From Firmicutes bacterium M10-2 (GTDB lineage Bacteria; Bacillota_I; Bacilli_A; Erysipelotrichales; Erysipelotrichaceae), in contig KE159696.1 in NCBI GenBank assembly GCA_000403415.2, positions 1-64,000 of the forward strand: a stretch of 64,000 bases of DNA, read 5' to 3'. The position numbers and the translations under genes were made by a program. The notes beneath the pieces are model-generated. The model did not search any database. It was not told the origin of the DNA and saw nothing but the letters and a program-made list of their open reading frames with translations. Shown piece by piece: positions 38,899 through 64,000 of this stretch (positions are counted from its first letter, which is position 1; every line of letters starts with the position of its first letter).

Positions 38899-40413
38899 AT
38901 GAGAGGAATCTATAATTCAGTAACCGATATACGCCGTAAAGTATTTACGGAAATCGCCCGAATGGCTTATGCCGACAACGTGGACTACGCAAAACGTATC
39001 GAGGAAATCCCTTACGAAATTTTGCCTGGAACTAAAGCAAAATACCGTAACAGCATCTTCTTGGAACGTGCGATCATCGGAGAAAGACTTCGTCTTGGGA
39101 TGGGACTTCCGCTTCGCGAAATGTCCGAATACGGAGCTCTGAGCGATGGAATCGAAGAAAGTGTCATTGCGACCAAATACTATGATGATCCGCTGATCAA
39201 CATTATTAAATTCGCATGCAATGCATGTCCGGAAAAGAAAGTGTTCGTGACCAATGGCTGTCAAGGATGCCTTTCTCATCAATGTACGGAAGTCTGTCCG
39301 AAAGACGCGATCCATATCGTCAACGGTCGCTCACTGATCGATCAGGAAAAATGTATCAAATGCGGTCGTTGTATGGATGCGTGTCCTTATTCAGCAATTG
39401 TAAAGATCGAACGTCCATGCGCGGCAAGCTGCGGCATGAATGCGATTGGAAGCGATGAAGAAGGAAAAGCAGTCATCAACTACGATAAGTGTGTCAGTTG
39501 CGGTCAATGTCTTGTGAACTGTCCGTTTGGAGCAATCGTAGATAAAGGACAGATCTTCCAGACGATCTACTCGATCAAACAAGGTGATGAAGTCATTGCA
39601 GCTGTTGCCCCTGCATTTGTCGGACAATTCGGTCCGAGTGTGACACCGGATAAATTGAAAGCAGCCTTAATGACTCTTGGTTTCTCGGATGTTGTCGAAG
39701 TCGCAATCGGTGCCGATCTTTGTACGATTGAAGAAGCAGCTGATTTTTTAGACAAAGTTCCTGAAAAGCAGCCATTCATGGCAACAAGCTGTTGTCCGGC
39801 ATGGTCTGTCATGGCAAAAAAGGAATTTCCACAATTCGCATCTTACATTTCCATGGCACTGACTCCGATGGTGCTTACAGCCCGTATGATCAAAAAAGAT
39901 CATCCGAACTGCAAAGTCGTATTCATCGGTCCTTGCGCGGCAAAAAAATTGGAAGCAAGTCGCCGGTCTGTGCGCTCGGATGTTGATTTTGTCTTGACCT
40001 TTGAAGAAGTGATGGGTCTTTTCGAAGCGAAAGCAATTGATCTCGAGCAAATTGTCGAAAGCGAACCTTTGCTGGCCGGATCCAATGATGGCCGCGGATT
40101 CGCCGTCAGTGGCGGAGTTGCCAAAGCCGTAAAAGATGTCATCGAAAAAGAACATCCAGATATGCAAGTAAAAGTTCAGGCTGCAGAAGGTTTGAAAAAC
40201 TGCAAGACGATGCTTATGATGGCTAAGGCCGGTCGTCTAAACGGATATTTGCTGGAAGGTATGGCTTGTCCTGGCGGTTGTGTTGCCGGAGCCGGTACAT
40301 TGCAGCCAATCCCAAAATCGAGTGCTGCCGTGAAACGATACGCAACAGAAAATACAAAGAAAACTTCGGATGAATCCGATTATGCACACCGTCTGCACGA
40401 ATTGACGGAATAA
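38899..40413 (+). CDS. [FeFe]-hydrogenase-like protein, group B type
   Basis: The 504-residue single-chain protein begins with a Cys-rich stretch and two ferredoxin-type clusters (CTEVCPKDAIHI, CIKCGRCMDACPYSA, CVSCGQCLVNCPFGA). The H-cluster domain follows, with L1 TSCCPAW (296-302), L2 GPCAAKK (344-350) and L3 MACPGGC (455-461). All four H-cluster Cys are present. The motif variants fit the group B enzymes of anaerobic Bacillota, whose physiological role (H2 uptake, evolution or sensing) is not settled. The maturases HydE, HydF and HydG are not in this window. GAAGGAG precedes the ATG. Confidence 0.88.
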   Translation: MRGIYNSVTDIRRKVFTEIARMAYADNVDYAKRIEEIPYEILPGTKAKYRNSIFLERAIIGERLRLGMGLPLREMSEYGALSDGIEESVIATKYYDDPLINIIKFACNACPEKKVFVTNGCQGCLSHQCTEVCPKDAIHIVNGRSLIDQEKCIKCGRCMDACPYSAIVKIERPCAASCGMNAIGSDEEGKAVINYDKCVSCGQCLVNCPFGAIVDKGQIFQTIYSIKQGDEVIAAVAPAFVGQFGPSVTPDKLKAALMTLGFSDVVEVAIGADLCTIEEAADFLDKVPEKQPFMATSCCPAWSVMAKKEFPQFASYISMALTPMVLTARMIKKDHPNCKVVFIGPCAAKKLEASRRSVRSDVDFVLTFEEVMGLFEAKAIDLEQIVESEPLLAGSNDGRGFAVSGGVAKAVKDVIEKEHPDMQVKVQAAEGLKNCKTMLMMAKAGRLNGYLLEGMACPGGCVAGAGTLQPIPKSSAAVKRYATENTKKTSDESDYAHRLHELTE

Positions 40414-61076: not shown

Positions 61077-61115
61077 AAAAAAACCGACAGAAACATTTTC
61101 CGTCGGTTTTCTTTT
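61077..61115 (-). terminator. intrinsic terminator of the rnf operon
   Basis: On the minus strand AAAACCGACGG pairs with CTGTCGGTTTTTT, right after the short rnfB. It shows that the gene ends here and is not cut by a frameshift. Confidence 0.85.
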
Positions 61116-61419
61116 ACCCTTTGATCGTGACAGTCTTGCCGTCAGGTCCGGGTGTATTTTTTAAATAATCGATAATTTCTGCTTTTTTGTCCGGTTTACA
61201 AGGTTTACATTTAAAATCCGTAACATCCCCGTTAACCATTGCTTCAGCTAATGCTCCGCATCCTGCATAGCCACAGCCGCCACAGTTATAGTTTGGCAAT
61301 GCCGAAGTTACCCAATCAACGCGCGGATCAGCTTCTACGTGCAGAAATTTGCTTGCAAGCCCTAGACCGCAGCCCAGCAACGCCCCAAGAACAAGCATCA
61401 TAATGATCGCAACAATCAT
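61114..61419 (-). CDS. rnfB: short RnfB: iron-sulphur domain only, no ferredoxin domains
   Basis: The 101-residue protein has the N-terminal membrane anchor (MIVAIIMMLVLGALLGCGLGL) and the RnfB-type cluster-binding segment NCGGCGYAGCGALAEAMV, then CKPCKPDK. The usual RnfB is about 180-280 residues and continues with two [4Fe-4S] ferredoxin domains. Here the gene stops and a terminator follows immediately. RnfB is the entry point for electrons from ferredoxin, so this short form must either receive electrons differently or partner another protein. It overlaps the preceding 66-residue gene by 4 bases (ATGA). Confidence 0.85.
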   Translation of the reverse strand: MIVAIIMMLVLGALLGCGLGLASKFLHVEADPRVDWVTSALPNYNCGGCGYAGCGALAEAMVNGDVTDFKCKPCKPDKKAEIIDYLKNTPGPDGKTVTIKG

Positions 61420-61616
61420 ACGACAGATCCTCCTTTTCTTTTATCGTGATGCGGATTGTTCATGCACGAAAGATCTTTGCATCCTTCGCAATCCGCTTTT
61501 AAATTTTCACATCCCGGAGGAAGCGGAGTCTTCTTGTTCATCAAAAACAAGAAGATATAAACCGCAACCAGCCCTCCGAATAATAAGATAGCTCCTACAA
61601 TTGTTTGTACGGGCAT
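61416..61616 (-). CDS. 66-residue Cys-rich single-span membrane protein in the rnf operon
   Basis: One membrane segment (TIVGAILLFGGLVAVYIFLF) and a short tail with four Cys in GCENLKADCEGCKDLSCMNN (C-x6-C-x2-C-x4-C), possibly a metal or iron-sulphur site. It somewhat resembles FeoB-associated Cys-rich small proteins, but its setting between rnfA and rnfB, with overlapping starts and stops on both sides, ties it to Rnf. Not a standard Rnf subunit. Confidence 0.8.
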   Translation of the reverse strand: MPVQTIVGAILLFGGLVAVYIFLFLMNKKTPLPPGCENLKADCEGCKDLSCMNNPHHDKRKGGSVV

Positions 61617-62191
61617 TAAACGATACCCGCAAATCCGCTAAACGCCATAGCCATGATTGCGGCAACAATCAAAGCAATCGGATTTCCTTTCAATGGATTT
61701 GGAACATTGGCAATGTCCAAACGTTCGCGAATCGTAGAGAAAATATAGAGGACAAGCGCAAAACCTAAAGGTGTACCAATCGAATATACAAGCATCTGTG
61801 CGAAATTGTAACTATTCGAAATATTGACAAGGCATACATTCAATACAACGCAGTTTGTCGTAATCAAAGGTAAATAAACGCCTAAGGATTTATACAAAGA
61901 CGGACTCGTTTTCTTGATGAACATTTCGGTTAGCTGTACTAACGAAGCAATGACCAAGATAAACGTGATCAAATCCATAAACTGCAAGTTCAACGGAACA
62001 AGCACTAAATAATACAACGCATATGTAACCAGAGCCGCCACGACAATAACAAACATAACGGCCACACCCATACCGATTGCAGAGCTTCTCTTTCTGGAAA
62101 CCCCCATGAAAGGACACATACCGAGGAACTGGTTCAAGACGACGTTGTTGATTAAAACGCTCGTTACGAGCAAAGTGACTAATTCAGACAT
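61616..62191 (-). CDS. rnfA: Rnf complex subunit RnfA
   Basis: The 191-residue, six-span membrane protein has VLINNVVLNQFLGMCPFMGVS and LITTNCVVLNVCLV, with the conserved Cys that coordinate an iron-sulphur centre between RnfA and RnfE. It is part of the ion-pumping ferredoxin:NAD oxidoreductase. It follows rnfE by 4 bases. Confidence 0.95.
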   Translation of the reverse strand: MSELVTLLVTSVLINNVVLNQFLGMCPFMGVSRKRSSAIGMGVAVMFVIVVAALVTYALYYLVLVPLNLQFMDLITFILVIASLVQLTEMFIKKTSPSLYKSLGVYLPLITTNCVVLNVCLVNISNSYNFAQMLVYSIGTPLGFALVLYIFSTIRERLDIANVPNPLKGNPIALIVAAIMAMAFSGFAGIV

Positions 62192-62195
62192 CCTT

Positions 62196-62852
62196 CTACT
62201 TTACCTCCTCTGCTTTGGCTGCTTTTTCATCTGCGTGTTTTTTATAAGCTCCGATCACCGCTGCCAAGAATGCAAAAGTTACAAAAGCTCCGACAGGAGA
62301 ATTAAACAGCGGAATCGTATAGGCTTCCGGGATCAATGTCACATTAATCCATACTTGCGCTTCATTAAACGGATTGACAATATTCAATACGCCCGTGGCA
62401 AGAACTTCACGAATAAACGACATTGCAACCACTGCAAGAGTATATCCAAGACCCATTCCAAGACCATCCAAAGCAGAATCGGCAATCCCGTGTTTGCTGG
62501 CAAATGCTTCCGCACGCCCTAAGATGATACAGTTTACGACAATCAAAGGAATGAACACCCCTAAGCTCGTATTCAAAGCAGGTGCATATGCTTCGATCAG
62601 CATTTGAATGATCTTTACCAATGTAGCAATGATCACAATATAAACAGGAATACGAATTTCATCTGGTACGATTTTACGAATCGCCGAAATGATGACATTG
62701 GACATGATCAATACCATGATAACAGCTGCTCCCATACCAATCGCATTGTTTACTGTTGTAGTGATGGCAAGAGTCGAACAAATACCAAGATACAAGGAGA
62801 ATACAGGGTTATCCTTGATCAGACCAGCTTTAAAATTTTCAAAACGGTTCAT
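62196..62852 (-). CDS. rnfE: Rnf complex subunit RnfE
   Basis: The 218-residue, six-span protein has FKAGLIKDNPVFSLYLGICSTLAIT and FIPLIVVNCIILGRAEAFASKHG, with the paired Cys matching RnfA. The lysine-rich C-terminus ends KAAKAEEVK. It lies between rnfG and rnfA. Confidence 0.95.
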   Translation of the reverse strand: MNRFENFKAGLIKDNPVFSLYLGICSTLAITTTVNNAIGMGAAVIMVLIMSNVIISAIRKIVPDEIRIPVYIVIIATLVKIIQMLIEAYAPALNTSLGVFIPLIVVNCIILGRAEAFASKHGIADSALDGLGMGLGYTLAVVAMSFIREVLATGVLNIVNPFNEAQVWINVTLIPEAYTIPLFNSPVGAFVTFAFLAAVIGAYKKHADEKAAKAEEVK

Positions 62853-62862
62853 GAGTTTCCCC

Positions 62863-63372
62863 CTATTCTAATCCAGCCGCAATATCGGCTGCCTGATGAA
62901 TCCCTTCAACAACCGGTGTTGAAGTGACAGTTGCTCCCGAAATCGTGTCGATTTGTCCGGCCGCATCTTTTCCGACCACGCTATCCGCGAACGCGCTTTC
63001 GGTAATTTTGGAACCGATCCCTTTGGTATCTCCATTCGAGATTGCCTTGAATGCCGATACTGTCAGATCGTCTTTATTAATAGCAACCAAGAACGTTGTT
63101 CCATCTTTATATCCGGAAACGCTCATGTTGAAAATATAATTATCTTCATAAGAATAAATCTTATTTACAGTCGGATTATCTGTTGTCACATCCATGATCT
63201 TGAAATCATCGACATTGGCACTTGGATACATTTCCAACAGCACTTGTTTTTCGGCTCGTTCGTTATTTAAAGCAATGACCGGTGCAGTCAGCTGATTGGC
63301 AAACGCCAATGCACCACCGGCAATCGCCGAAACAATGGCTAAAAATAAAGTCAAATGAACGATCTTATTCAT
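62863..63372 (-). CDS. rnfG: Rnf complex subunit RnfG (covalent flavin)
   Basis: The 169-residue protein has an N-terminal membrane anchor (LTLFLAIVSAIAGGALAFAN) and an FMN-binding domain with the flavinylation motif SGATVTSTPVVEGI (FMN on the second Thr). It faces the outside and passes electrons in Rnf. It overlaps rnfD by 4 bases. An ApbE-type flavin transferase is needed but is not in the window. Confidence 0.94.
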   Translation of the reverse strand: MNKIVHLTLFLAIVSAIAGGALAFANQLTAPVIALNNERAEKQVLLEMYPSANVDDFKIMDVTTDNPTVNKIYSYEDNYIFNMSVSGYKDGTTFLVAINKDDLTVSAFKAISNGDTKGIGSKITESAFADSVVGKDAAGQIDTISGATVTSTPVVEGIHQAADIAAGLE

Positions 63373-64000
63373 AGAAATACCTCCTCGTTCATGACTTCAG
63401 GCACAACGTAGGCTGTCGCGCTTGAAGATGTACGCAGTGTAGTAACCGGTTCAATAGTTTTTGCCGCGAACAACGAAACCCCAAGAGCAAGAACGCAGAA
63501 GCATGCAAACGCAATGTACACTTTTTTTGCGATCTTCAATTGATTTCCATCCAACGATGATTCGATCATCGGTGTAAACATATTCATAAGCAGAATCGAA
63601 TACAAGCATCCTTCCGGAAGGTTAGCCTTCATACGAAGAAGTACAGTCAAGATTGCAGCCCCCAATGCAAAGAGCACACGACCGGCAGCACTTGTCGGAT
63701 TTGTGACAGGATCGGTTAACATAAATACACCGCCGAATACAACTCCACCTGTTACAAGATGAAGAGCAGGATACCATAAGAAAGCAGGGACTCCATGATA
63801 AGGTTCAAGACCTGCAATCAAAGCGATGACTGCTGTCATGATCGCTATTGCACCAAGATATACGACAGGAATTCTCCAGTCGATCACATGACGCAAAGCA
63901 AGAACGATCCCTACGAGCAAGATTGCAATCGTAAACGTTTCCCCGATCGCGCCTGCATACGTTCCAAGAGCTAAAGAGCTGAATCCGCCAAACTGTTCCA
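63369..64000 (-). CDS. rnfD: Rnf complex subunit RnfD (partial, runs off the window)
   Basis: The frame stays open to the window edge. The last about 209 residues include LALGTYAGAIGETFTIAIL, LVTGGVVFGGVFMLTDPVTNP and LPEGCLYSILLMNMFTPMIE, which are RnfD/NqrB signatures with several membrane segments. The N-terminal part, and rnfC expected before it, lie beyond 64000. Gene order is then (C)-D-G-E-A-small-B. Confidence 0.94.
   Translation of the reverse strand, partial: EQFGGFSSLALGTYAGAIGETFTIAILLVGIVLALRHVIDWRIPVVYLGAIAIMTAVIALIAGLEPYHGVPAFLWYPALHLVTGGVVFGGVFMLTDPVTNPTSAAGRVLFALGAAILTVLLRMKANLPEGCLYSILLMNMFTPMIESSLDGNQLKIAKKVYIAFACFCVLALGVSLFAAKTIEPVTTLRTSSSATAYVVPEVMNEEVFL

Follow-up and report, generated by a model that had tools for sequence, protein, structure and literature searches.

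Rnf is a main ion pump in anaerobic gut bacteria. The described complex most similar to the one considered here is that of Thermotoga maritima. Its genes lie in the order rnfCDGEAB, its RnfB has a mass of 10.56 kDa and one predicted 4Fe-4S cluster, and, once purified, the complex uses clostridial ferredoxin as electron donor and acts as a Na+ pump (PMC7414866). This RnfB is presented as a shortened form, with FdI only, in a paper on Clostridium tetanomorphum (PMC9588780); FdI and B8 are the names used for the RnfB iron-sulfur domain in structural papers (PMC9588780, PMC11889175). Accessory membrane proteins have also been described. NqrM seems to be required for insertion of the intramembrane [2Fe-2S] cluster of NQR, as stated in a review (PMC12174285). 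RseC has a cytosolic CX5CX2CX5C motif with its last three Cys residues conserved, can bind an oxygen-sensitive [4Fe-4S] cluster and contacts RsxB and RsxD (PMC11729352); it is essential for the autotrophy of C. ljungdahlii, and the authors of that study favour a regulatory role (PMC9124969). Our search of open-licence papers yielded no account of any small gene separating rnfA from rnfB, and nothing on the Rnf of Erysipelotrichaceae.

Organisation of the rnf operon

The window analysed spans bases 1 to 64,000 of a contig of 272,083 bases, from a genome of 2.41 Mb. It contains most of an Rnf operon on the minus strand, in the order rnfC-rnfD-rnfG-rnfE-rnfA, a gene for a 66-aa protein, and rnfB. 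Immediately outside the window are rnfC, roughly half of rnfD, and apbE in divergent orientation. The features are as follows.

61077..61113, minus strand: intrinsic terminator hairpin after rnfB (-20 kcal/mol, z -5.1)
61114..61419, minus strand: rnfB, 101 aa, a transmembrane anchor and an FdI/B8-type [4Fe-4S] domain, without ferredoxin domains
61416..61616, minus strand: 66-aa single-TM Cys-rich protein (CX6CX2CX4C), candidate Rnf accessory, tail cytosolic by the positive-inside rule
61616..62191, minus strand: rnfA, 191 aa (TIGR01943, 251.9 bits)
62196..62852, minus strand: rnfE, 218 aa (TIGR01948, 223.5 bits)
62863..63372, minus strand: rnfG, 169 aa (FMN_bind, PF04205; motif SGATVTS at residue 145)
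63369..64000, minus strand: rnfD, C-terminal part (PF03116); the gene extends to contig position 64589 (406 aa)
Contig 64543-65832, outside the window: rnfC (ORF call)
Contig 65959-67056, outside the window: apbE, divergent (ORF call)

All six core Rnf subunits are encoded in this one operon and, judging by sequence, the core redox sites are present. Residues Cys 26 and Cys 114 of RnfA are candidate ligands of the intramembrane [2Fe-2S] cluster, and RnfE has paired Cys residues at positions 25 and 108. RnfD carries a TSATP motif, which we take, together with the SGAT of RnfG, to be a flavinylation motif. RnfC is complete. Its two CxxCxxCxxxCP motifs correspond to the pair of clusters normal for this subunit, and it has no additional ferredoxin domain; the domains missing from RnfB thus do not reside on RnfC, as the original prediction had suggested they might. 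The genome also encodes a pyruvate:ferredoxin oxidoreductase and one [FeFe] hydrogenase; the sole match for the latter (PF02906) lies in the window at 39589-40293 on the plus strand, in a 514-aa frame.

The small gene overlaps rnfA by 1 nt (TAATG) and rnfB by 4 nt (ATGA), and its product has four Cys residues; it had been predicted to belong to an intact operon, and these features bear this out. The hairpin begins directly past the rnfB stop codon, and none of 200 shuffled sequences was equally stable. A promoter and terminator scan of the locus listed neither element; this simple scan probably missed the rnfB hairpin because the stem consumes the T run. Frameshifting or truncation of rnfB was considered and rejected, as 22 of the 30 loci in the family set described below encode a similarly short RnfB whose end falls at about the same place. 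The initial claim of a terminator immediately after an unshifted rnfB therefore holds.

PF04060 matched residues 41-73 of RnfB with 45.4 bits (cut-off 23), and the cluster Cys residues are at positions 46, 49, 54 and 71. A Pfam search of the 101-aa protein found no 4Fe-4S ferredoxin domain, confirming the predicted absence of such domains. TIGR01944 (rnfB) was matched over the first 91 of its 190 positions only; the score of 64.1 bits did not reach the cut-off of 68.7. The RnfB profile matched the solved RnfB chains 7zc6, 9eri and 8ahx. The AlphaFold2 model had a pLDDT of 86.7, and its top Foldseek match was the N-terminal 4Fe-4S domain of CFeSP (2ycl_A, rmsd 1.3, E 0.07). No second complete rnfB, which the original prediction had listed as a finding that would count against it, was found elsewhere in the genome, the match to PF04060 being the only one. 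C-terminal ferredoxin domains on RnfB are used as a criterion for Rnf membership and are absent here; since the T. maritima Rnf also lacks them, they do not define the Rnf family.

Distribution and ancestry of the short RnfB and the small gene

The family set consisted of the 30 best PF04060 loci. It contained 22 short RnfB sequences (88-105 aa) and a single RnfB of 270 aa (L012); the other seven were unrelated frames, about 400 aa long, one of which was truncated. The small gene was present between rnfA and rnfB in all 23 short-RnfB loci, the window's own included. A search of named genomes recovered 156 relatives of the small protein, nearly all from Erysipelotrichaceae (80 kept). The relatives include Holdemanella, Faecalicoccus, Longicatena, Dielma and Allobaculum, which we place in this family. 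The 80 named loci were selected by the small protein itself, and are therefore uninformative about co-occurrence.

We used a phylum-wide sample of 392 genomes, taken as GTDB Bacillota/Bacilli on the basis of the named relatives, in which 136 genomes had Rnf-Nqr A/E subunits. RnfB was classed from the matches listed down to about 2e-11, and 27 of the 136 Rnf-bearing genomes remained unclassed by length; six genomes (G412, G303, G355, G468, G401 and G373) were classed from their loci, with approximate coordinates. The 109 classable genomes comprised 105 with a short and four with a long RnfB (G499, G506, G520 and G412); a fifth long-RnfB genome (G022) came from the family set. An RnfB with one cluster is therefore the norm here. 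Two genomes of the short class have longer RnfB frames, of 187 aa in G533 (L155:5628-6188) and 183 aa in G400 (C151), each with a tandem pair of FeS domains; the small-protein gene is also present twice in G533.

Profile A1 detected the small protein in 113 of the 392 genomes, 109 of which had Rnf-Nqr A/E subunits, the other four being weak matches. It was found in 98 of the 105 short-RnfB genomes with A1, and in 102 after the seven misses had been searched with A4, versus none of the five long-RnfB genomes; A4 was applied to 12 genomes (the A1 misses and the long-RnfB genomes) and eight further records, the other A1-negative genomes being covered by A1. The co-occurrence of short RnfB and small gene raised in the original prediction is thus borne out. 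Three genomes with a short RnfB (G303, G355 and G414) had no match to A1 or A4; in G414, a divergent ORF with a CxxCxxxC motif occupies the slot of the small gene. Of the 98 short-RnfB genomes positive with A1, 90 had the gene immediately before rnfB and in the same orientation, and eight had it elsewhere. Two of the four genes recovered with A4 were adjacent to rnfB and two were elsewhere, bringing to 10 the number of genomes in which the gene stands away from rnf; this suggests that the small protein can act in trans. The neighbours of the four stand-alone genes examined (L147, L158, L160 and L164) read as housekeeping genes, and Rnf-Nqr genes were present in all six genomes whose examined small gene stood away from rnf. 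In five of the seven genomes with at least two RnfB operons, small genes were fewer than operons.

The short RnfB is itself already known, and a single-cluster RnfB also occurs in Fusobacterium, where the 429-aa protein (L223) has the first cluster motif only and no small protein was found. In the Fusobacterium vincentii protein (L223:7546-8832), repeated helical-looking modules and paired Cys residues replace the ferredoxin domains beyond the first 4Fe-4S motif. The T. maritima complex, which works with ferredoxin and pumps Na+, shares with that of the window the order of the core genes and a small RnfB (about 10.6 kDa) predicted to hold one 4Fe-4S cluster, but its published gene order (PMC7414866) goes from rnfA straight to rnfB, and RseC is present in the genome. 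These single-cluster RnfB proteins indicate that the missing domains imply no new electron carrier: the other carrier originally proposed is not needed, as the short-RnfB complex of T. maritima takes electrons from ferredoxin (PMC7414866). Nor did a separate ferredoxin gene by the operon, also put forward at the outset, emerge from the survey: extra frames with a C..C..C...C motif were seen at eight of 142 loci, and the three judged to be real genes were not in the operon.

A tree was estimated from joined RnfA and RnfE sequences of 46 loci, with a midpoint root; L237, in which rnfA was read in two pieces, was left out. Four of the long-RnfB loci grouped with Clostridia, Bacteroidota, Fusobacterium and E. 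coli (support 1.0), apart from all the short-RnfB Bacilli loci. L012, L235 and L236 clustered together, and L239 lay beside Subdoligranulum. By this placement, the small gene is the mark of a separate clade of Rnf, of Bacilli type, and the mutual exclusion of small gene and long RnfB reflects about two lineage events rather than five independent ones. The link to RnfB length is confounded by operon ancestry. Relatives with a full-length RnfB and no small gene, named in the original prediction as a finding that would count against it, do exist in five cases, but their operons belong to another Rnf lineage.

Relation of the small protein to known Cys-rich membrane proteins

The Cys residues of the window's small protein are at positions 36, 43, 46 and 51. 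The CX2CX4-5C part of the motif was present in all 80 representatives of profile A4, and the first Cys in 73 of them; three membrane-proximal residues, N27, T30 and P33, are invariant. The Lys/Arg content predicts a cytosolic tail for 78 of the 80 representatives, and likewise for 14 of 14 NqrM sequences. AlphaFold2 gave a confident helix over residues 3-28 and a low-confidence tail. A structure search with this model and a PDB sequence search with the small-protein profile returned no match. Divergent small genes with an altered membrane-proximal motif or Cys spacing occupy the same operon slot at L152, L171, L177 and L242:5314-5484, showing a protein that apparently changes fast outside its CxxC core.

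The small protein resembles NqrM (PF04400) in size (about 55-80 aa), in its N-out single TM helix and cytosolic Cys-rich tail, and in its location beside an NQR/Rnf-type pump and apbE. However, NqrM has a GSCGG motif and another Cys spacing, and serves NQR rather than Rnf. PF04400 had no match in 23 small-protein members at E 10. Homology to NqrM was not retained: hhalign gave promising values of 56-75 percent, but the score was reached by column-shuffled tails in 13 of 200 cases with A4 and 24 of 200 with A1.

Like RseC/RnfF (PF04246), the small protein is a probable membrane accessory linked to Rnf, with a predicted cytosolic four-Cys motif of near-equal spacing, the last three Cys residues being conserved in both. 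RseC differs in its length (about 140-160 aa), its two TM helices and a Cys domain placed ahead of them. The small protein had no PF04246 family match, and has neither two TM helices nor an N-terminal Cys domain; one divergent member aligned with RseC_MucC over the Cys motif at E 4.9, which is chance level. Homology is not expected, because the domain order is reversed. RseC matches were obtained in 15 of the 392 genomes, all weak or partial and two above the cut-off, yet the three Rnf-bearing control genomes, from E. coli, Bacteroides and T. maritima, each had RseC. Bacilli with a long RnfB lacked the small protein and also any clear RseC (the RseC search covering these genomes except G022), so not all Rnf complexes need a helper of the RseC kind. 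The idea that RseC is the complementary gene within Bacilli fits only partly, given these genomes with neither, and was not retained.

The best profile-profile score, above that for NqrM, was obtained with FeoB-associated proteins (PF12669), which also consist of a TM helix and a short Cys-rich tail. Against 23 such proteins, taken from 30 PF12669 loci by the presence of the motif near the locus centre, hhalign gave 84 percent (E 7.8e-6), a score reached by none of 200 tail shuffles; short TM-plus-Cys proteins are nevertheless prone to convergence. PF12669 scored 17 bits against the window's small protein (cut-off 27) and weakly matched eight of 23 members (best E 0.0013). Unlike the small protein, this family is linked to feoB rather than rnf, and the genome has both, a separate PF12669 gene immediately following what looks like feoB, a membrane-protein gene.

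Candidate roles of the small protein

As a conserved partner of Rnf, the small protein is a new element, none having been described in the open-licence literature searched. Our best reading, by analogy, is that it may be an RseC/NqrM-like iron-sulfur accessory; we take it as the Bacilli counterpart because, like NqrM and RseC, it is a Cys-rich membrane protein tied to such a pump, and RseC is nearly absent from the Bacilli sample. From the sequences, we put at about even the chances that the locus encodes an ordinary ferredoxin:NAD+ pump of the Bacilli-type Rnf clade, in which the small protein is a dedicated membrane accessory for an iron-sulfur cluster. Reduced ferredoxin would pass electrons directly to the single [4Fe-4S] cluster of the short RnfB, and from there they would travel through the RnfA/E [2Fe-2S] cluster, the FMN of RnfG, the flavins of RnfD and RnfC to NAD+. 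The single helix of the small protein would set its four-Cys tail at the cytosolic face, where the tail may bind iron or a labile Fe-S cluster and so help to insert or maintain an Rnf cluster, most likely the [2Fe-2S] cluster of RnfA/E or the cluster of RnfB. Such a role would parallel that of NqrM for NQR and, possibly, that of RseC for Rnf/Rsx elsewhere. The sequences establish the anatomy of the small protein, its close coupling to rnfA and rnfB, its almost universal association with short-RnfB operons and the invariance of three Cys residues; we infer topology, metal binding, target and role from its position, distribution and Cys conservation.

The main alternative to this accessory role is a seventh, stoichiometric redox subunit, the Cys cluster of which relays electrons from ferredoxin to RnfB in place of the lost domains. 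The small protein accompanies short RnfB almost without exception and was never seen together with a long one; this pattern, the translational coupling on both sides of the gene, the predicted position of the tail on the same cytosolic side as RnfB and the three invariant Cys residues would all be consistent with such a subunit. We nevertheless consider it unlikely, since a single-cluster RnfB occurs without the small protein in Fusobacterium and, from the published gene order, in T. maritima; copies are outnumbered by Rnf operons in five of seven multi-Rnf genomes; the first Cys is missing from seven of 80 sequences; the tail is predicted to be low in order; and stand-alone genes occur in 10 genomes. 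The Fusobacterium case and the copy numbers likewise disfavour the notion that the small protein stands in for the lost domains. It also appears doubtful that such a redox-active seventh subunit gives the Bacilli-type Rnf a module for electron entry that is separate and exchangeable, through which one Rnf core could take up electrons whether the 66-aa membrane cluster protein is encoded in cis or in trans. The initial observation at this locus was confirmed; its interpretation found support only in part and, for the most part, lacked it.

The conserved slot between rnfA and rnfB weighs against the accessory reading in that a subunit for structure or assembly, with no metal role, could occupy it as well; such a subunit would stabilise the RnfA/RnfB helix bundle and have disulfide- or zinc-related Cys residues. 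The conserved membrane-proximal N-x-x-T-x-x-P motif points in this direction, and there is a precedent in RnfH of Azotobacter, a cofactor-free extra subunit (PMC12174285). An invariant CX2CX4-5C motif in a presumably reducing cytosol, and a best profile match to a FeoB-linked family, make this improbable. That match, with the weak PF12669 hits among members, could instead indicate a ferrous-iron carrier of general function, akin to the FeoB-associated proteins, that moved into rnf operons and supplies iron broadly. We regard this as very unlikely: every PF12669 match is below the cut-off, the genome keeps its own PF12669 gene behind the putative feoB, and, save for the four weak matches, only genomes with Rnf have the small protein.

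In the literature surveyed, installation of the buried [2Fe-2S] cluster of Rnf is known only through analogy with NQR. A conserved Cys-rich partner of an RseC-less Rnf clade offers a concrete, small target for this question, and expression of an Erysipelotrichaceae Rnf would probably need the small protein alongside.

Some Bacilli also have a second operon with RnfD/G/E/A-like genes (L249:2971-6828, L199:4269-8161 and L205:4521-8359; also at L210, L244, L246 and L248). At L249, L199 and L205, these genes are followed by one for an NqrF-like-looking protein of about 360 aa. Neither rnfC/nqrA nor rnfB was found in the second operon, leaving a set of five NQR/Rnf-like genes without an evident output subunit. 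RnfG-matching proteins of 641-669 aa, far above the usual length and possibly with several flavin domains, are encoded in Rnf operons at L202:3126-5048, L206:3674-5680 and L247:2176-4125.
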